64,000 bases of DNA. It comes from Bacteroidota bacterium. Lineage in GTDB: Bacteria > Bacteroidota > Rhodothermia > Balneolales > Balneolaceae. Below are positions 1,703 through 11,379 of the stretch, one piece after another. How positions within the stretch are numbered: the first letter of the stretch is position 1; every line of letters begins with the position of its first letter. Location of the stretch: positions 1-64,000 of the forward strand of contig JAAAOB010000156.1 in assembly GCA_009909035.1 (NCBI GenBank), in the 5' to 3' direction. The translations under genes and the position numbers were made by a program. The notes beneath the pieces were generated by a model that was not told the origin of the DNA, did not search any database, and worked only from the letters and a program-made list of their open reading frames with translations.

Positions 1703-3304
1703 TCAATGCTTGATCAGTGACTTCACTTTCTCAATATAGGGATCCTTCTGAAAAGCGATATCTTTCTGGTCAATCTCGACCCAAACGTCCGGGGGTAAAT
1801 ATCCATCTTCAGCATCCTCTCCATAGCTCGTAAACTTCAGCGGAATATCAATTTCAAACTGAGAATTCGGAAGGTAGAGAAAGAGGTAGCTTCCTCCATT
1901 GATTCCTTCCCTGTTTCCGCCTGAAGGCTGACCAACGTATGTTCCAAGATTTTCTTTTTGGATGGTGTTCAGTAATGAAAACGTTGACGATACATTTGAC
2001 TGATTTCCCAAGATGTATAGCTTACCAGAAAAATGGTTCCCGGAGGGTTGAATCGGCTCGCATCCGCCCTCCAACAACTCAGAGAAGCGGCTGTTGTAAG
2101 GGCGTGTATACGTTTCAGGGAGCCCTTCGAAAATAATTTCATCCCGGGTTTGAACATAGTTACGGTAGCTTGAATCTGCTTGTGTCGTTACGACCAACTC
2201 TTTCCTGTTTTCACTACATGGAATAGGTTCCTCTGATAAGTGAGAGAGCAGCAGATATCTGTTCTCCGAAAGTCCGCCCCCATTTCCCCGAATATCGATC
2301 ACAAGATTTTCGACTCCGTTTTGATTGACCATAGTAAATACAGAATCATAAAATTGAGCTGCATCAAAATTCTCAAATCTCCAGGTGGCGAAGGTTCCAA
2401 GTTTTAGTATTGCCATCTCTTCCTGCATGTCCAACGACCAGGTCTCTTTACCGGTTGGGACTGGCCCATAGGTTGATGTCATGATCTTCATCCGTTCCGT
2501 TCTGGATAAGGCCGGTTGTCTGTGCCTGATAATTTCATCCGATCCGTAATTTTGTACGGTCACCTCAAATATTTCTTCCTGCATGGGAAAGAAAAGAGGG
2601 AAGTAGAAGTCGAAAAAATTATAATCCCTTTCACCAAATGCCGTGAGCTCGAGAAGCTTATCCTTCGCCTGTACATTGGATCCGTCGACTTTGGCGACGG
2701 TATAGAGGCTGTCTAAAATGGAAGAAGCTGAAAAACCATTGATGGATATAATTTCAGCACCGGTCATTATGTCGTTGTTATTCGAGGCGTTTTTTGTGAT
2801 ATAGAGCCTTCTATCATCGATTACGAAACCGAATGGGAGATAGATATTACCACCAAAGAGACGGTCGCGAATCTCTTCTTTCATATTCCAGGGATTGAGA
2901 TAGGTATGGCCACACCGAACCTTTTCCGTGAACTGCGCCACATGCTTCATAAATTCGGCCTCGGTCATGTCCTGACTCAGCTTGGTGAAAAATGTCTGAA
3001 AATGAGCTTCAAACTCTTTTTCCGTGTTGTATCGATAAATGTCGGGGTGCACATCCAGCATTACTTTTTTGAGAAGCAGGGCATCTTCCTGTAGATCTAC
3101 AGCAGATAGCAGCTTTCCTTTCACGATGCTGTTCTGATAATCCCCCGTTTTTGGAGCAGGTGACATCAAACCCCAACTCTTTGAGAAGTCCTTATTCGCG
3201 CCAAAGTTCAAATCAGGTTGTAACAGGCTGCCAAAGTCGCTTAAAAGTGAAAATGTGAAGGTTACAAATAGGATAATGGTACAGGCGGTTTTAATAAGTG
3301 TCAT
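1703..3304 (-). CDS. S41 family peptidase (C-terminal processing protease-like)
   Basis: 533 aa ORF; VIDIRGNGGG and GKLYILGNQSNVSSTFSLL; PDZ-like ISINGFSA. Confidence 0.85.
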   Translation of the reverse strand: MTLIKTACTIILFVTFTFSLLSDFGSLLQPDLNFGANKDFSKSWGLMSPAPKTGDYQNSIVKGKLLSAVDLQEDALLLKKVMLDVHPDIYRYNTEKEFEAHFQTFFTKLSQDMTEAEFMKHVAQFTEKVRCGHTYLNPWNMKEEIRDRLFGGNIYLPFGFVIDDRRLYITKNASNNNDIMTGAEIISINGFSASSILDSLYTVAKVDGSNVQAKDKLLELTAFGERDYNFFDFYFPLFFPMQEEIFEVTVQNYGSDEIIRHRQPALSRTERMKIMTSTYGPVPTGKETWSLDMQEEMAILKLGTFATWRFENFDAAQFYDSVFTMVNQNGVENLVIDIRGNGGGLSENRYLLLSHLSEEPIPCSENRKELVVTTQADSSYRNYVQTRDEIIFEGLPETYTRPYNSRFSELLEGGCEPIQPSGNHFSGKLYILGNQSNVSSTFSLLNTIQKENLGTYVGQPSGGNREGINGGSYLFLYLPNSQFEIDIPLKFTSYGEDAEDGYLPPDVWVEIDQKDIAFQKDPYIEKVKSLIKH

Positions 3305-3362
3305 AACATTTGGATTGATTTAAAAGATCTGCCTGAAAGTCTTAAATCGATCACTCAAGATC

Positions 3363-3414
3363 GTCTCAAGGGAGATTTGAGACCCGGAATAGTAGTGTCA
3401 GGGAGATTTGAGAC
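3363..3414. promoter_or_regulatory. candidate operator: two GGGAGATTTGAGAC direct repeats, the first within a GTCTCAA-N6-TTTGAGAC palindrome
   Basis: Exact copies at 3370-3383 and 3401-3414 between the AraC-type gene and the S41 gene. Confidence 0.4.
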
Positions 3415-3423
3415 GTGCGGAAT

Positions 3424-4566
3424 CTATGCCTGTTTTTCTACAAACTGCTTGGGAGTGAGTCCGGTATGTGCCTTAAATACGCGGTAAAACGTAGCTTTTG
3501 AATTGAACCTGGCATCCAGGGCAATGCTCAGAAAGGTGTGGTTTGTACAATCCGGATCAAGTAACCGTTTTTTTACCTCTTCAACCCTTAACTCATTTAT
3601 ATACTCATTGAAGTTCAGCTGTTTGCCCTCATTGATGATAAATGAAATTTTATTAGCGGTCGTATTCAGATCTCCGGCTAACACATCTAAGCTGAAATCG
3701 GGGTTTAAATAAGGTTTATTTTCCAGAACGTACGCGTCCAGTAATTTTAATTGATCTTTGAGATTATCATCTGTCAGATGATAACGCTCCTTTCGTTTTG
3801 GCCTGGAAGAAGGCAACAGCTCAGGTTTCGCGTTCTGAAAACCATTGAAAGAAACCCAGTACCATGCGAGTACCTTGCTCACATCAAGCAGGAAAGAAGC
3901 CCACGTAATATTGTAGATATTGATCTCGTAGAGATTCCAGAGAATAAAATCCAGGATATCATAACCAAACTGGATAGTTATCAATGCAAGAAACAGATAG
4001 AGAAAGCGAAGCAGCCATCTGAATTGATCTGATTTCCACTCCGGGTGACTCGATTGCTTTTCTGTTTTTATGAGTTTGATCGCGGCATAGATATAGGCGA
4101 AGAATGTTAGAACGAACAGAGCACTTTCCAGATCCCCATACCAGACGCTGATCACGTTTTGCCACATCCAGTTTTTAAACTCATATTCTCTGAAACCGAT
4201 TGAGAAATAGAAGAGCGCCTGAAGAATCGGTAAAATGGCGTGCAGAAGGTGAGTCTTACGAATTTGAAAGCTCGGATGAATCTTTGTTCGAACGTAAAAA
4301 TAGGTTAGAGGGCCAAATGATAGGGTATAATGGAGAGGAATGAAATAGAGGTGCTTAAACTGTGAATAGATACCGGCGTTAGCGAAGAGACTGTTCAGAA
4401 GCGTAAACGATCCCAGAATAAGGAGAGCCCCCAAAAAGATATTGGATCGGGTCCTCTGTTTTCTAAAAAGGAGGTGTAATCCAAAAAATAAGCTGGTAAG
4501 AACGGCTCCGGCCGTAAAAAATAGGGTAACTAAACTGTCCAATTGAAACTCTACGCTCATAATCAT
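3424..4566 (-). CDS. AraC family transcriptional regulator with N-terminal membrane domain
   Basis: Hydrophobic N-terminal half; C-terminal FNEYINELRVEEVKKRL...SIALDARFNSKATFYRVFKAHTGLTPKQF. Confidence 0.9.
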   Translation of the reverse strand: MIMSVEFQLDSLVTLFFTAGAVLTSLFFGLHLLFRKQRTRSNIFLGALLILGSFTLLNSLFANAGIYSQFKHLYFIPLHYTLSFGPLTYFYVRTKIHPSFQIRKTHLLHAILPILQALFYFSIGFREYEFKNWMWQNVISVWYGDLESALFVLTFFAYIYAAIKLIKTEKQSSHPEWKSDQFRWLLRFLYLFLALITIQFGYDILDFILWNLYEINIYNITWASFLLDVSKVLAWYWVSFNGFQNAKPELLPSSRPKRKERYHLTDDNLKDQLKLLDAYVLENKPYLNPDFSLDVLAGDLNTTANKISFIINEGKQLNFNEYINELRVEEVKKRLLDPDCTNHTFLSIALDARFNSKATFYRVFKAHTGLTPKQFVEKQA

Positions 4567-4635
4567 GAGTATAAATGTTATCGGGGAAAAACGATCAGAA
4601 TGATTATGATCTGTTTAGAGGGTTTGGGTAGAACT

Positions 4636-4762
4636 TTATAACGACATTGCGCATAAGGTGCGCACGAATGAATGTTGAGTTGTTAAATAATGATTGGAGA
4701 GCTAAAAAGCCAAAAGGTGGCAAAACCAGGCGAGGTGCGTCACCTTACTGCGCGGGTTATAA
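4636..4762. repeat. attC-like imperfect palindromic element C
   Basis: Starts TTATAAC and ends GTTATAA; arms contain GCGCATAAGGTGCGCAC and GGTGCGTCACCTTACTGCGC. Confidence 0.4.
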
Positions 4763-4888
4763 AATCCCAAATTTCAGAGTATTACCTGAAATTTTTAAAA
4801 CAAAAAATAGTCTAAAAAACTGGAATTAAAATTTTTCTTAGTATAGGAAAGTAGAATACATAACTATGATAACATATAAACGAAAGAT

Positions 4889-6430
4889 ATGGAATCCGAT
4901 CACGATGTGGCGAAGGAGCGAGACCAGTTAAAATTGTTGTTGGATGTTAGCAGACAAGTGATCAACAACTTCGATGTTGAGAATCTCTGCCACATCATCT
5001 TGGAAAACCTTCGGAAGGTAATGGACTGTGATCACTCGGCACTGTTTTTACCAGATAAAGATCCTGATTATCTTTTTCTCTATTCATACGATTTCCCGGA
5101 ATCAAAAGGGATTATCGAAATTGGTAAAAAATTGCCGATGGAAGGATCCAACTCAGGGAAAGCTTATCGATCAGGCGAAATCGTCTTAACCAACCATCTT
5201 GACTTAAGCGAGATAAATAATACAGTAAGGGAAATTGTTGAAATTGAGAAGCTACATGCAAGTTGCTTTTTGCCACTCATAAATAATGATGAGAAGATAG
5301 GCGTTCTGCATGTAGCACGGAAAAATTTGGAACCCTATGATGAAAATGAAATAAACTTTCTTCGGAAAATTGCAGATCAAACAGCAGTTGCATTGTCTAC
5401 TGCGCTGGATATTCAACGAGTCAAAGAATCAGAAGAACGACTGCATAAGGAGAAGACCTATCTGGAAGATGAGCTTACGTCATCACTTCACTTCGGGGAA
5501 ATAATCGGCAAAAGTAAAAAACTGAAATCTGTAATTGAGCAAATCAAAGCAGTAGCACCGACGGATTCAACAGTATTAATACAGGGGGAGACCGGAACTG
5601 GAAAGGAACTTGTTGCCAGAGCTATACATAACAGCAGCAAGAGAAAAGACAAGAGCTTCGTGAAATTAAACTGCGCAGCTATTCCGCGGGGATTGCTGGA
5701 AAGTGAGCTTTTTGGCCATGAAAAAGGCGCCTTCACCGGAGCCATCGATAAAAAAATCGGCCGTTTTGAAGTAGCCGACGGCGGTACGCTATTTCTTGAT
5801 GAAATCGGGGATATTCCACCAGAGCTTCAACCAAAGCTTCTTCGTGTACTACAGAGCCAAGAGTTCGAGAGACTTGGAAGCACGAAAACAATTAGTGTTG
5901 ACGTAAGATTGGTGGCAGCTACAAACAAGGATCTTGAGGGACTTGTTGAGCAAGAGCAATTTCGGAGCGATTTGTTCTATCGTATTAATGTATTCCCTGT
6001 TGAACTTCCTCCGCTTAGGAAGCGAACGGAAGATATTCCTTTACTTTGCAGCCACTTTGCAAAGATCTACTCCAAGAAAATGAAGAAGGAAATCAAAGAG
6101 ATTCCTGATACTGTAATCCAAAAACTAAAGGATTACGCCTGGCCTGGCAACATCAGAGAGCTTCAAAACGTCATAGAACGAGCAGTCATCCTTATGAAAG
6201 ACGGGACCTTAACACCTGTTGTCCCTGAGATACAGCATACTGATAAGATGCAAAATTCAACCGTTACTGACCTTGAAGAGGTTCAGCGAGAGCACATCAA
6301 GAACATTCTTCGAAAGACTAACGGTGTTGTTGGCGGGCCGGATGGTGCTGCCAAATTGCTCGGTCTGAAAAGGTCCACGCTACGTTCTCGGATGAAAAAA
6401 TTGGGTATTTCCCGAGACGATCTGGGCTAA
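4889..6430 (+). CDS. GAF-domain sigma-54-dependent transcriptional activator (Fis family HTH)
   Basis: GETGTGKELVARAIH, ESELFGHEKGAFTGA, C-terminal Fis-type HTH. Confidence 0.93.
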   Translation: MESDHDVAKERDQLKLLLDVSRQVINNFDVENLCHIILENLRKVMDCDHSALFLPDKDPDYLFLYSYDFPESKGIIEIGKKLPMEGSNSGKAYRSGEIVLTNHLDLSEINNTVREIVEIEKLHASCFLPLINNDEKIGVLHVARKNLEPYDENEINFLRKIADQTAVALSTALDIQRVKESEERLHKEKTYLEDELTSSLHFGEIIGKSKKLKSVIEQIKAVAPTDSTVLIQGETGTGKELVARAIHNSSKRKDKSFVKLNCAAIPRGLLESELFGHEKGAFTGAIDKKIGRFEVADGGTLFLDEIGDIPPELQPKLLRVLQSQEFERLGSTKTISVDVRLVAATNKDLEGLVEQEQFRSDLFYRINVFPVELPPLRKRTEDIPLLCSHFAKIYSKKMKKEIKEIPDTVIQKLKDYAWPGNIRELQNVIERAVILMKDGTLTPVVPEIQHTDKMQNSTVTDLEEVQREHIKNILRKTNGVVGGPDGAAKLLGLKRSTLRSRMKKLGISRDDLG

Positions 6431-6645
6431 TGTAGGTTTTGGGCATTCCCTTATAATCAAACTTGATCTGATAATCAGCCTTTCGTAGAACGAAAAGAGA
6501 GCTACCTTGCGGTGTAATACCACCATCGGAGGTGATATATCGCCGCTGTCTTCATTTCATATTCTGTCGTTTTTAAAAAGTATTAATCCTTTAAATGGCT
6601 GCATACTAATGCTTTAGCTATTATTCGCATCTCTTTTACGCTTCC

Positions 6646-6661
6646 CTGGCATGCATGTTGT
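6646..6661 (+). promoter_or_regulatory. candidate sigma-54 (-24/-12) promoter
   Basis: CTGGCATGCATGTTGT, close to TGGCACG-N4-TTGC, upstream of ORF 6719-7033 and downstream of an activator gene. Confidence 0.35.
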
Positions 6662-6718
6662 CCCTCTATATATCGAGATGGTAACGAATAGACCATTTCA
6701 ATTAATCTAAAACTCAAA

Positions 6719-7033
6719 ATGAGGAACAGAAATATGAAAATATCAGGTGAATATTCAGTAACGGTAGATACACCAATTGGCCAGCAGGAAGGTTCATTAA
6801 CGCTTAAAGAAGAAAATGGATCGCTGAGTGGAACGCTTAAAAATTCCAAAGGAACCTTCGACTTTTCGGATGGCACCGTCGATGGCAGTGAGGTTCATTT
6901 CACTACAAAGATCAAAACGCCGATGGGTCGGTTGAAAGCTAAGGTATCTGGTAAAGTGGATGGCGACAAGTTCAAGGGTAAGGCAAAGCTCCCGCTGGGC
7001 TCTGCTGACATCACAGGAATAAGAAAAAATTAA
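6719..7033 (+). CDS. conserved hypothetical protein, predicted beta-rich (likely start ATG 6734)
   Basis: Coding-like composition, AGGAACAG upstream of ATG 6734, followed closely by M24 peptidase. Confidence 0.7.
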   Translation: MRNRNMKISGEYSVTVDTPIGQQEGSLTLKEENGSLSGTLKNSKGTFDFSDGTVDGSEVHFTTKIKTPMGRLKAKVSGKVDGDKFKGKAKLPLGSADITGIRKN

Positions 7034-7051
7034 ATATAGGAGGATAATATT

Positions 7052-8308
7052 ATGTTGATAAGAGAAGACTTAGAAGTTCCAACATTTTCGTTAGCAGAGC
7101 GAGATCGACGGTGGAATATTGCAAATGAACTTATGGAAGAGGAAGGGCTCGATGCGTTAATAGTTTATGGGGATAGAGAGGGATCAGCTCCGGCGACTTT
7201 TGCACCTGATACCTTCTTTACAAATGAGCGACCCGGTTCCATTGTCATTTTTCCCAAAAATAAAGAACCGATTGCAGTCGTGTTTCTTACCACCGTTGTA
7301 GAAGATCACATACAGGCGGGGTATACCAATTCCCAGGGATGGATTAAAGCCGAAAACATGTATGTGGGCAAAATGGGAGCGAATGTAGTTCAAGTTCTGG
7401 AAAGCCGTGGGCTTGAAGACTCCTCTTTTGGAGTCATTGGGCTGGATGCGTATCCACCATTCTATTTTGATGGGGCCATGCCCTACAATACCTGGCAAAC
7501 CATCACCGAACAGTTGCCAGAAGCAAGCTTCAAAAAAGTAGGTAACCGGTTCTTTGAACTTACAGCTGTAAAAAGTGAGGAAGAACTCGAGGTTTTAAAA
7601 TGGTCGGCAAATGTAGGGGAAAAAATGTGTCAGGCCATGCTTGAGGCTACGGAACCCGGCGTGCGGGAAAATGAGATTTACGCTGCGGCCGTGGCGGCAT
7701 GCTCAAAGAATCTCGGCTATACGGCCGAAATACTATTGGGCTCTGGACCGGAGTTTGTTGGCTGGGGACCGCCTGCCTGGAATTATCGCCCGGAAGAACC
7801 ACGCGTCATCCAGGAGGGAGATGTGGTACTGGCTGAAGTGTTCTCTTCCTTCGGGATGCTGGAAACGCAGCACCAACCGGCGATAGCGGTGGGAGATGTG
7901 CATCCGGACTTTGAAAAAGCTGCTACTGTAGCCCGACAATCCTATGAAAATGGAGTAGACCTTCTAAAAGCCGGCACTACATTTGGTGAAGTGGTTCAGG
8001 CCATGAACAAACCTATGCAAGAAGTGAATGCCTGGCATGTTCACCCGCTGATACACTCCATCAGTCCCTATGGATTAATCGGCGTTGGTGATAAACTGGC
8101 CGATTTGCCGGAGGCCAAGAACTATGGACAGATCCTGCAAATTCCATCTATTGGCTTGGATACCGAATTAAAATCGGGAATGGTATTCGCCTTTGAACCC
8201 AACTGTGCGTTAGGAAAAAGGGTCATAAATTTAGGTGGAACGGTTGTCGTTGGCGAAGAAGGGGGCATCGAACTGAATGAAAATTCGACCCATTTGATGC
8301 GGGGCTAA
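7052..8308 (+). CDS. M24 family metallopeptidase (Xaa-Pro peptidase-like)
   Basis: Creatinase-type N-terminus plus C-terminal fold (LAEVFSSFGMLETQHQPAIAVG, WHVHPLIHSI, GMVFAFEPN). Confidence 0.88.
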   Translation: MLIREDLEVPTFSLAERDRRWNIANELMEEEGLDALIVYGDREGSAPATFAPDTFFTNERPGSIVIFPKNKEPIAVVFLTTVVEDHIQAGYTNSQGWIKAENMYVGKMGANVVQVLESRGLEDSSFGVIGLDAYPPFYFDGAMPYNTWQTITEQLPEASFKKVGNRFFELTAVKSEEELEVLKWSANVGEKMCQAMLEATEPGVRENEIYAAAVAACSKNLGYTAEILLGSGPEFVGWGPPAWNYRPEEPRVIQEGDVVLAEVFSSFGMLETQHQPAIAVGDVHPDFEKAATVARQSYENGVDLLKAGTTFGEVVQAMNKPMQEVNAWHVHPLIHSISPYGLIGVGDKLADLPEAKNYGQILQIPSIGLDTELKSGMVFAFEPNCALGKRVINLGGTVVVGEEGGIELNENSTHLMRG

Positions 8309-8480
8309 ATCTTGGCAATCAATCTATAAATCACTGAGAGCACTTTATACAATTCTGGTAACCGTCACGAATGAGCAATTCTCGGTAAACAAGTGAAGGA
8401 TATAGTGTTCTCAGAAATTAACTATTCCCGTCGACGAAGTTTTTACTATATCACAATCTATCATTCAAAATGGAATTATT

Positions 8481-8993
8481 ATGCAAACCAATCAATCACA
8501 AGTCTACTTTGGAAAAAGTGGAATTACGATTTTCAAACTAATAAGAGCTTGTATAGCGGGAGCCATAGCTTTTGTGGCAGCTAATGTCGTTAGTAACCTA
8601 TTGTTTTTTCATATTGGCAAACCCATTCTTTTTGATCCAGATTTGCAGAGTGAGAAAGTAATGGCAGTTTTGTTCGAGATGGAACCTTTGCCGTTGATGT
8701 TTAGCAATGGTCCTCTCTACATGGCGATTGCCGCAGTTATTGGTGTTGTGCACGGCTTAGTCTTTATGTATATCGAACCATCGTTAGGCAAAAATAAACT
8801 CAAGCGAGGTGTCGCATTTGGTGCAATATTATGGGCGCTGATGGCCTTATACTTTGAGTTCCACACGCCGTTCAACATGTTCCATGAGCCGGTCATATTG
8901 GTTCTGCTCGAATTGCTATTCTGGATTGCTGTTCTTTTAGTGGAAGGGTTACTTATTTCTTGGATTTATGGAAAAAGTAGATCTGCTTTATAA
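8481..8993 (+). CDS. hypothetical multi-pass membrane protein
   Basis: 170 aa ORF with several hydrophobic segments. Confidence 0.65.
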   Translation: MQTNQSQVYFGKSGITIFKLIRACIAGAIAFVAANVVSNLLFFHIGKPILFDPDLQSEKVMAVLFEMEPLPLMFSNGPLYMAIAAVIGVVHGLVFMYIEPSLGKNKLKRGVAFGAILWALMALYFEFHTPFNMFHEPVILVLLELLFWIAVLLVEGLLISWIYGKSRSAL

Positions 8994-9020
8994 AGCAATT
9001 TTACCCATGTTCGATGGGAA

Positions 9021-9053
9021 GTTATAACGGTCCGCATGAACGCGATGTTAGCC
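9021..9053. repeat. attC-like core fragment D
   Basis: GTTATAACGGTCCGC...GATGTTAGCCGCC; shares AACGGTCC with 9748 and 10490. Confidence 0.3.
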
Positions 9054-9453
9054 GCCGAGCGTACAATCGATGTGATTTGGCTCTGACGTACTCGGCAATT
9101 TCCTCTTTTGATATCTTCTTTGTCACAAAGTTTAAAACCAAGTCAGTCAGTTCTTCATCGTAGGATTCTTCAGTGCTGTAATCACTCAAGTACAGAAAAG
9201 TAAGGGCAGAGGCCAGGGCTGTACGCTTATTTCCGTCAACAAACGGGTGACGCATCGTCAGGCATGAGATATAACTGGCCGTCATTTCAAACAAGTCATG
9301 CAGATAGTCTCCGTCAAAACTGACTTTGGGAGCATCAACACACGCTTTGATTCCTTCCTGATTACGGATGTTGGGCTCACCCCCGGAAATTTGTATCTCT
9401 TGTTGATGAATAAACAGAATATCTTCCAGTGACAGGAGGGCCGGTTCAGGCAT
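9022..9453 (-). CDS. type II toxin-antitoxin death-on-curing (Doc/Fic) family toxin
   Basis: HPFVDGNKRTALASALTFL Fic/Doc motif; MPEPALLSLEDILFIHQQEI N-terminus. Confidence 0.88.
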   Translation of the reverse strand: MPEPALLSLEDILFIHQQEIQISGGEPNIRNQEGIKACVDAPKVSFDGDYLHDLFEMTASYISCLTMRHPFVDGNKRTALASALTFLYLSDYSTEESYDEELTDLVLNFVTKKISKEEIAEYVRAKSHRLYARRLTSRSCGPL

Positions 9454-9659
9454 TATTCAGCAAGTTTATCCAGGGATTTACGGTGGTTTCTGCTGATCTC
9501 CTGATATGCAGACTGGACGTCAACTTTCTATATTAACAGCCCGTCCTCATGAGGAACAATCTCCACACGGCCACTTTCCTCAACTTTGAGAAGTTTCAAG
9601 AGAGGCTTTTCAAGAAGAATACTTCAGCTGTTTCCGATTTTTTGAAGTTTTTTAATCAT
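9453..9659 (-). pseudogene. AbrB/MazE-like antitoxin of the Doc module with two in-frame stop codons
   Basis: Hand translation MIKKLQKIGNS*SILLEKPLLKLLKVEESGRVEIVPHEDGLLI*KVDVQSAYQEISRNHRKSLDKLAE*; TGA at 9624-9626, TAG at 9528-9530; frame otherwise open and overlaps the toxin start as TAATG. Confidence 0.75.
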
Positions 9660-9744
9660 GGCAAGTGATATTTGTTCTTACTAAATTCTTACATTTATAA
9701 TACTCAGAGAAAAGGTAAAAAGTATCAGGCAGGGTAAATTTTAT

Positions 9745-9778
9745 TCCGGCGGCTAACGGTCCCGCGTCAATACCGTTG
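9745..9778. repeat. attC-like core fragment E
   Basis: CTAACGGTCCCGCGTCAATACCGTTG; shares AACGGTCCCGCG with repeat F. Confidence 0.3.
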
Positions 9779-9790
9779 TGTGTGCCCGAT

Positions 9791-10195
9791 TTACTTTTTT
9801 AAAATCTCCCAAAACCCTCGTGGTGAAATAATCTTGATTTGGGTAAGATCTTTTGAAAGAACCAATAGATCTTTATCACCAGTAACTAAAATATCAGCTT
9901 TTGCCCTTAATGCTGATTCCAATACCCATCGATCATCTTCGTCTCTTACTTTTACTTCAGAAGGTTTGTCAGGAATTGGTTCTATGTGGTGGTGCTTTCG
10001 AAGAAATAGTATGGTCTTAGAAACTTTATTCTGTGGAACGCTGAGTTTTGTAATCAATACCCGTTCAAATTCTTGTAATACAAATTCTCCGGTCATCAAT
10101 TGATGGTCAGCAAGTATAATTTCAAGAAGGTCGGCACATAATCCCCTTGCGGTGAAAGCACTTATTAAAACGTTGGTGTCAGCAAAAATTTTCAT
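9791..10195 (-). CDS. PIN domain toxin (VapC-like)
   Basis: MKIFADTNVLISAF start, DEDDRWVLESALRAKADILVTGDKDLL. Confidence 0.9.
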   Translation of the reverse strand: MKIFADTNVLISAFTARGLCADLLEIILADHQLMTGEFVLQEFERVLITKLSVPQNKVSKTILFLRKHHHIEPIPDKPSEVKVRDEDDRWVLESALRAKADILVTGDKDLLVLSKDLTQIKIISPRGFWEILKK

Positions 10196-10455
10196 GAAAC
10201 TTCACGAAAAACATCTTCATCGGTGAGCCATCCTTGTGCTTCACCATAGGGTAGAAGTTGTTTACGTAGTTCCTGAAAAGATTCAATTGATAATTGGCGT
10301 TTTAAAGCTTGCCGGACCAACTCACTCTTTGTGCGTCCTGATTTTCTCGATGACTCTTCAAGAAGTTGTTCCAGCTCTTTGTCAATTCGAATAGTAAGAG
10401 TAGTGTCCATAATCGTAGAGTTATTTAAATGTTTTACAATGTAATACAACTTCAA
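10192..10455 (-). CDS. ribbon-helix-helix antitoxin (likely start MDTTLTIRIDKELEQ, internal Met)
   Basis: TLTIRIDKELEQLLEESSRKSGRTKSELVRQALKRQL; stop/start overlap with the PIN toxin. Confidence 0.88.
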   Translation of the reverse strand: MKLYYIVKHLNNSTIMDTTLTIRIDKELEQLLEESSRKSGRTKSELVRQALKRQLSIESFQELRKQLLPYGEAQGWLTDEDVFREVS

Positions 10456-10484
10456 CGAACGGGCAATTTATTTATTTGGAAAGG

Positions 10485-10607
10485 GTTAAACGGTCCCGCG
10501 CTTAACCGGCACCGGGATTATAAACTGTTTGAATATTTTGTCCTCACAATCTACTCAAACCCACCGGAAGAGCAAGGCGGTGTCCGCGTTTAATTACCTT
10601 GTTATAA
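10485..10607. repeat. attC-like imperfect palindromic repeat F
   Basis: GTTAAACGGTCCCGCG ... GTGTCCGCGTTTAATTACCTTGTTATAA; central hairpin GTTTGAATATTTTGT (10527-10541)/ACAATCTACTCAAAC (10546-10560) with CCTC loop. Confidence 0.45.
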
Positions 10608-10641: not shown

Positions 10642-11237
10642 ATGAAATACCACACACCAAAATCTGAAGATGAGATTCTTCCGAATAAGCTCGGTTTAAC
10701 AAATCCCGAAAAGATCGCTGAAGAGGAGTACCGTGGTTTTTGAGAGCTGAAATTAAATTCGAGTCTGAACTGGATCAAATAAAAAAAGTTTGATTGGAAA
10801 CTATTGTCATCAATTCACAGAACGGCTTTGGGCCATTTATACGAATTTGCAGGAGAACTGAGACAGTAAATATGTCTAAGGGAGGTTTCTTATTCCCTGC
10901 AGCCAAGTTTTTACCATCGATCATTGAAGAATTTGAAAAGGATTTTTTAGAACCGTTGTCTTTCCCAAGTAAGGATTACCAGGAGATGATAAAGCAAGTA
11001 GCTTTGATACATGCCGAACTTCTATTCATTCATCCATTTCGGGAGGGGAAGGGACGTACAGCGAGGCTGTTTGTTGATTTAATAGCTTTGAAAAGTGGAT
11101 TCGAACGGTTCAATTTCGAAAAGATTGATGAGAAGAAAATGGCGGACTACATTGCAGCAGTACAGTCAGCGGCCGACAAAAATTATGAACCAATGATAAC
11201 TCTCTTCAAGAGTTTGAGAAATCAGGACTATTTTTAA
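10642..11237 (+). pseudogene. Fic family protein disrupted by about three frameshifts
   Basis: Frames joined by eye: MKYHTPKSEDEILPNKLGLTNPEKIAEEEYRGF / LRAEIKFESELDQIKK / FDWKLLSSIHRTALGHLYEFAGELR / TVNMSKGGFLFPAAKFLP...HPFREGKGRTARLF. Confidence 0.8.
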
Positions 11238-11379
11238 ATTCGCGAACAACCTCCCGTCGAATTTGATCGGCTCTCTCTTTTGGAATATTCATTCCTTCAA
11301 TACGAAAAGAAGCCATTTGAGATTTCATGGCATCACGTGAAATAGTGCCAATATTTTTCTTCTTTGAAGTCGTTTTCAT
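11206..11379 (-). CDS. small VbhA-like Fic antitoxin candidate (57 aa, not in the ORF track)
   Basis: MKTTSKKKNIGTISRDAMKSQMASFRIEGMNIPKERADQIRREVVREFKNSPDFSNS; SFRIEG fits the Fic inhibitory motif [S/T]xxxE[G/N]; overlaps the Fic 3' end convergently. Confidence 0.6.
   Translation of the reverse strand: MKTTSKKKNIGTISRDAMKSQMASFRIEGMNIPKERADQIRREVVREFKNSPDFSNS

Follow-up and report, generated by a model that had tools for sequence, protein, structure and literature searches.

A decayed fic gene tail-to-tail with an intact, putative VbhA/FicA-like antitoxin gene in a Balneolaceae bacterium

A broken fic gene and an intact small gene with overlapping 3′ ends

The stretch of DNA analyzed here (hereafter, the window) comprises 64,000 nucleotides of contig JAAAOB010000156.1 from a bacterium of the family Balneolaceae. 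It contains a broken gene for a Fic toxin and, on the opposite strand, a small gene that we interpret as the gene for its antitoxin (Table 1). The first-pass annotation, made from the nucleotide sequence alone, had described three breaks in the Fic reading frame, a lysine in place of an asparagine in the FIC motif, and a complete open reading frame (ORF) of 57 amino acids that converges on fic and overlaps it by 32 nt; each of these was recovered when the sequence was re-examined. Frame tracing yielded three frame changes. The 5′ Fic frame reads MKYHTPKSEDEILPNKLGL...EEYRGF and reaches a stop codon at 10741–10743; the frame resumes at around 10780–10790 as KKFDWKLLSSIHRTALGHLYEFAGELRQ and is lost again near 10866–10870; and the FIC motif and the C-terminus are encoded in a different frame, which stops at 11235–11237. 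The open part of the gene matched PF02661 (E = 2.5e-10).

The canonical motif HxFx[D/E]GN[G/K]R is present in the intact relatives, as HPFREGNGR or HPFRDGNGR (at locus L004, it begins with HQF, not HPF), whereas the window copy reads HPFREGKGR in a broken frame, with lysine at a position that is asparagine in every intact relative. The C-terminus of the window Fic is LRNQDYF, whereas that of its relatives is LKK. Because the C-terminus is altered in this way, the overlap of 32 nt, compared with 20 nt in most close relatives, is probably itself part of the decay of fic. Judged by its sequence, the Fic toxin of the window is dead.

Conservation of the small gene and repeated loss of Fic in Balneolales

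In a six-frame search of 98 related genomes, the small ORF had relatives in 14; outside its own genome, the best E-values were 4e-23 to 1e-26, and only the weakest matches had internal stops. A scan of a GTDB-based contig collection identified more carriers in the Balneolales, such as Rhodohalobacter halophilus and Gracilimonas amylolytica. The 15 Balneolales sequences aligned are separate small proteins with an [S/T]xxxE[G/N] motif and are identical at 15 positions, among them S24, I27, E28, and G29, the SxxIEG core being invariant. Over codons 1–50, the window copy differs from its closest relative, in genome G039, by 13 synonymous and two nonsynonymous changes. This conservation rules out a chance ORF.

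The first-pass annotation had proposed that relatives be searched both for the small ORF and for the same convergent pair with an intact Fic. The ORF proved to be conserved and tail-to-tail with Fic wherever Fic was present: at every Balneolales locus with adjoining Fic sequence, the two genes were convergent and their 3′ ends overlapped. Fic was intact beside the small gene at seven of these loci (L003, L004, L006, L007 of Gracilimonas amylolytica, L009, L011, and L022). It was broken or partly deleted at the window locus (L001) and at L002, L005, L008, L012/L036, L017/L025, L027/L028, L030, and L032, the break positions varying from genome to genome, and at no fewer than eight Balneolales loci, the antitoxin gene was intact while Fic was broken or deleted. 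One copy (L013/L037) lacked any detectable Fic, and another locus (L010/L034) stopped at a contig edge. The reverse case, an intact Fic with a broken antitoxin, was not seen among the Fic matches, the shorter gene also being the smaller target. The repeated loss of Fic next to intact antitoxin genes supports the earlier proposal that the antitoxin had outlived its toxin.

Substitution patterns point in the same direction. Between the window and G039, in which both fic genes are broken but in different places, the Fic fragment carries 38 nonsynonymous and 34 synonymous differences and the antitoxin gene two and 13, respectively (Fisher p = 0.009), whereas in the intact pair L003–L006, the proportions are alike in the two genes (p = 1.0). 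Coming from one pair, this contrast is suggestive only.

Convergent layout as a trait of one Fic lineage

Starting from a distant antitoxin match (L020/L060) and from Fic searches, we reached convergent pairs in other Bacteroidota families (L061, L068, L070, and L073) and on plasmids of Proteus, Marinomonas, Citrobacter, Aeromonas, Salmonella, and others (L075–L078 and L083), the gammaproteobacterial side being represented by plasmid records only. At these wider loci, a small ORF lies on the opposite strand at the fic stop, with the cores SHKIEG, SARVEG, SAAIEG, SSRVEG, SSKIEG, and S[ST]AIETG. When all loci were examined uniformly for a motif-bearing opposite-strand ORF at the fic stop, it was present in 22 of 22 convergent-type loci, none of 11 loci with an upstream antitoxin (a set taken from plasmid records and unevenly sampled), and none of four other Fics. 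The overlaps in the 22 loci ranged from 4 to 74 nt, with one gap of 14 nt; the longest belongs to L004, where the antitoxin frame extends beyond its usual stop.

In a maximum-likelihood tree of Fic proteins, the convergent and upstream types were divided by a branch with 100/100 support. When two Rhodothermia Fics lacking a recognizable antitoxin were added, both grouped with the convergent side (100/99), the inner order being unsure. In class I FicTA modules, the antitoxin gene usually lies immediately upstream of fic in one operon, an order that is not strictly defining; here, all 22 loci have it downstream of fic and convergent to it. A rearrangement peculiar to this genome is ruled out as the source of the layout by the relatives and these 22 loci. 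The first-pass annotation was right about the convergence, whereas the term "unusual" that it applied does not hold for this Fic lineage, in which convergence is the normal layout. No convergent fic/antitoxin order was found in the literature searched, which mostly did not cover subscription journals, and we regard the predicted tail-to-tail FicTA module as an architectural variant not previously described.

Two further observations were made on the plasmids. In L077 and L083 (Citrobacter and Salmonella plasmids), a gene for a site-specific integrase ends 4 nt upstream of fic, and the antitoxin gene is convergent to fic, a mobile setting different from that in the Balneolales described below. 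In L081 (Cedecea neteri plasmid) and L082 (Erwinia rhapontici plasmid), a convergent-type antitoxin gene has no Fic annotated alongside it, and these are possible orphan antitoxins.

Resemblance to known Fic antitoxins

When a broad profile of the convergent antitoxins was compared with 177,635 PDB sequences, VbhA (3shg_B and 3zc7_B) ranked top, aligned at ASQRLEG with the motif in register (E ~0.5). The Balneolales profile (A1) produced two PDB matches, the second of which was the YhfG-type antitoxin chain 8wt0_B, at SLRLEG (E = 1.5). In profile–profile comparisons, the Balneolales profile aligned at the motif both with eight diverged convergent antitoxins (P = 9e-5, probability 59%, run without the rows common to both alignments) and with six upstream antitoxins (P = 4.8e-5, probability 68%). 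AlphaFold predicted helices at residues 15–27 and 34–50 of the 57-amino-acid protein, with a mean predicted local distance difference test (pLDDT) score of 70, and the motif falls where the first of these ends, as in EcFicA (PMC5033356). With six sequences as input, AlphaFold modeled the intact L003 Fic poorly (mean pLDDT 58.8), and that model was not used. A PADLOC scan of the small protein returned nothing relevant, and an Rfam scan of the window returned no match. No sequence model places the small protein in the VbhA family, VbhA being its sub-significant top PDB match; taken together, these comparisons provide good but not conclusive evidence that it is an antitoxin.

Among characterized systems, VbhT/VbhA of Bartonella schoenbuchensis (class I FicTA, PDB 3SHG) is similar in having a small separate antitoxin with an [S/T]xxxE[G/N] helix and a canonical Fic motif (here, in the intact relatives), but vbhA lies upstream in the operon (PMC3667792, PMC5033356), whereas the gene described here is convergent and overlaps the 3′ end of fic. 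In EcFicT/EcFicA (YhfG, DUF2559) of Escherichia coli and YhfG/Fic of Acinetobacter plasmids, yhfG is upstream and co-directional, and their Fic lineage lies across the 100/100 branch from the convergent Fics. Fic-1/AntF of Pseudomonas bijieensis likewise consists of an AMPylating Fic toxin restrained by a small alpha-inh protein, but antF is directly upstream of fic-1 (PMC13327609), unlike in the convergent pair.

Integron cassette setting in Balneolales

Many of the Balneolales loci are flanked by imperfect inverted repeats with the ends TAAC and GTTA. In a covariance model of twelve such repeats, 89.7% of the cells were paired, with 15 double-sided changes compared with 5.7 in shuffles, and the pairing collapsed on sliding, although the structure was fitted to the same sequences and the counts are biased in its favor. 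As a model of attC sites, it detected eight sites in L099 (genome G045) and four in L100, some but not all of which were training sequences, and at both loci, the Fic pair lay between adjacent sites that share one orientation. An integron integrase above the curated cut-off lies 1.2–1.3 kb from the Fic pair in G033 and G045, and of 17 genomes scanned with the integrase model TIGR02249, 11 had a match above its cut-off. In the genome of the window, the integrase is on another contig (C22), eight attC matches occur on other contigs, and the upstream attC is the only recognizable one at the Fic pair. Judging from these sites and integrases, the Fic/antitoxin pair is an integron gene cassette in Balneolales, a point that the first-pass annotation had not made. 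Because the attC model matched no non-Balneolales or plasmid locus, the cassette claim is restricted to Balneolales.

Toxin–antitoxin (TA) cassettes are known from the sedentary chromosomal integrons of Vibrio cholerae, in which TA pairs with their own promoters occupy array cassettes and are toxic once excised (PMC11023631). That paper does not mention Fic, and the cassettes described here, in Balneolales, carry two facing genes each.

Some side observations concern the distribution of these cassettes. Balneolales-type cassettes also occur on short contigs assigned to Pleurocapsales (L032) and to gammaproteobacterial and Desulfobulbaceae metagenome-assembled genomes (L027 and L028), and their presence in these unrelated genomes probably reflects binning contamination or, possibly, recent transfer. 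In L099, positions 3077–10136 hold at least eight attC sites beside the integron integrase, with mostly reverse-oriented genes resembling TA pairs. In the window, a lone attC-like site at 4633–4762 (20.5 bits, E = 0.012) lies between the divergent ordinary genes 3424–4566 and 4889–6430.

Neighboring toxin–antitoxin genes of the window

The Fic pair of the window stands at the end of a row of three TA pairs. From 9022 to 10607, a Doc module with a broken antitoxin frame is followed by a pair encoding a PIN toxin and a ribbon–helix–helix antitoxin, directly before the attC site; G045 has a ribbon–helix–helix gene in the same place. Doc is open and its antitoxin-like frame contains two in-frame stops, so the opposite decay states of the Doc and Fic modules proposed earlier were borne out. 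The block is probably an integrase-less remnant of a TA-rich integron cassette array.

Table 1. Features of the window at and around the Fic pair
Feature	Coordinates	Strand	Remarks
fic pseudogene, class-I-like FicT of the convergent lineage	10642..11237	+	three frame changes; FIC motif Asn-to-Lys
FIC active-site motif HPFREGKGR	11033..11059 (approximate to a few bases)	+	
Intact 57-aa gene, putative VbhA/FicA-like antitoxin	11206..11379	-	motif S24-F-R-I-E28-G29; 32-nt overlap with the fic 3′ end, convergent
Putative inhibitory motif SFRIEG of the antitoxin	11293..11310	-	
attC site just upstream of fic	10483..10607	+	19.6 bits with covariance model R1; E-value 0.02 for the window, 0.003 for an unfiltered search of 10 kb
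PIN toxin and ribbon-helix-helix antitoxin, preceding cassette	9791..10455	-	same order as in L099 (G045)
Doc-type Fic toxin, open frame	9022..9453	-	PF02661
Decayed antitoxin-like frame upstream of Doc	9454..9659	-	two in-frame stops

Interpretation and alternative explanations

The comparison of the loci shows the pairing, the layout and its spread, the cassette setting in Balneolales, and that the toxin has been lost repeatedly while the antitoxin persisted. With a probability of about 0.82, we interpret the window locus as a decayed type II TA module in which a Fic toxin is paired with a VbhA/FicA-like antitoxin, their genes being convergent with overlapping 3′ ends. Several points weigh against this interpretation. 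The sequence matches to VbhA and YhfG fall short of significance, and the Fic-antitoxin models of Pfam and NCBIfam do not match the small protein, even at E 10. A Foldseek search with its AlphaFold model returned no Fic antitoxin, a weak null because a two-helix protein of 57 residues has little fold signal. The VbhA resemblance of the SFRIEG helix, as first proposed, is supported by the invariant SxxIEG, the top rank of VbhA in register, and the position of the motif in a helix, and is weakened by the E-value and the Foldseek null. Furthermore, the gammaproteobacterial antitoxins carry SxAIETG, not [S/T]xxxE[G/N]; the assembly is a 172-contig draft with 89% completeness, so that part of the frameshifts may stem from sequencing or assembly errors and an intact Fic may lie elsewhere; and the low ratio of nonsynonymous to synonymous substitution rates (dN/dS) of the antitoxin gene may be older than the loss of the toxin.

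One alternative is that the small ORF is a real conserved gene with another role, such as a cassette-borne regulator merely beside fic; in its favor are the lack of a match to any Fic-antitoxin family model, E-values of only 0.5–1.5 to VbhA and YhfG, and copies without Fic (L013/L037 and the Erwinia and Cedecea plasmids). However, a Fic partner recurs in three diverged groups whose sequences are unlike one another but share an S-x-x-[AIV]-E core and position, the best PDB match is VbhA in motif register, and a cassette-borne regulator leaves the plasmid pairs unexplained, which makes such a role improbable. We consider it only slightly less improbable that the window Fic is really intact and that its frame changes are errors in homopolymer runs: two of the three breaks are at T and A runs in a draft assembly, but the motif replacement and the altered C-terminus are separate signs of decay, the nonsynonymous share in the window Fic is higher than in intact pairs, and other genomes, including that of the strain Rhodohalobacter halophilus JZ3C29, show different Fic breaks. 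A stronger contender, to which we give somewhat less than even odds, is that the window antitoxin is also decaying with no retained function, and is intact because it is short and the toxin was lost first. Toxin loss must precede antitoxin loss, and with targets of 57 and 194 codons, 8–12 random breaks would all fall in Fic with a chance of ~0.05–0.13. The two nonsynonymous against 13 synonymous differences from the nearest relative, both Fics being broken at different places, and the plasmids on which related antitoxins may occur as orphans argue for retention instead.

Proposed mechanism and orphan state

We infer the inhibition, its targets, the regulation, and the orphan function as follows. 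Class I Fic antitoxins act through a helix whose serine and glutamate are set against the second arginine in the FIC motif, which blocks productive ATP binding (PMC5033356, PMC3667792). By analogy with this FicTA biochemistry, the first helix of the antitoxin would enter the Fic active site, where Ser24 and Glu28 would touch the second arginine of the motif; with no productive ATP binding, the toxin would be unable to AMPylate its target, probably gyrase or topoisomerase IV. Because the two genes face each other and cannot share a promoter, the antitoxin would need its own, and it may be transcribed from near the downstream attC, at the cassette end and not within a toxin operon.

The toxin and antitoxin mRNAs would be complementary across the overlap. 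The idea that this overlap is functional, with antitoxin mRNA acting as an antisense to the toxin mRNA end so that the restraint is exerted by both RNA and protein, and with toxin-dead cassettes conferring immunity against cassette-loss killing, is rather improbable. A convergent overlap is also known from type I TA systems such as yonT/SR6 of Bacillus subtilis (PMC5848175), where the 3′ end of the toxin gene is overlapped by the antitoxin RNA; that antitoxin is an antisense RNA, whereas the convergent Fic pair encodes a conserved protein.

No other Fic of the convergent lineage was found in the genome of the window, which is 89% complete, and because the toxin is dead as well, the predicted antitoxin is an orphan. 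It has most likely been kept for a time because it would protect against incoming cassettes or plasmids with an intact Fic. An anti-addiction role has been proposed for orphan antitoxins on pVbh (PMC5675462), and by analogy, such a role appears to be the likeliest reason for retention here, with passive survival a serious rival.

Significance

Fic antitoxins are usually sought upstream of fic, and the annotated plasmid copies of the convergent antitoxin are labeled only "hypothetical protein". An entire Fic lineage, found in Bacteroidota as well as on plasmids of enterobacteria, one of them a conjugative IncHI1B/IncP plasmid, thus seems to have been left without a named antitoxin. The convergent layout takes away the operon logic that underlies models of type II autoregulation and makes the control of the module testable, and the integron setting offers natural replicates of a dead toxin next to a living antitoxin.
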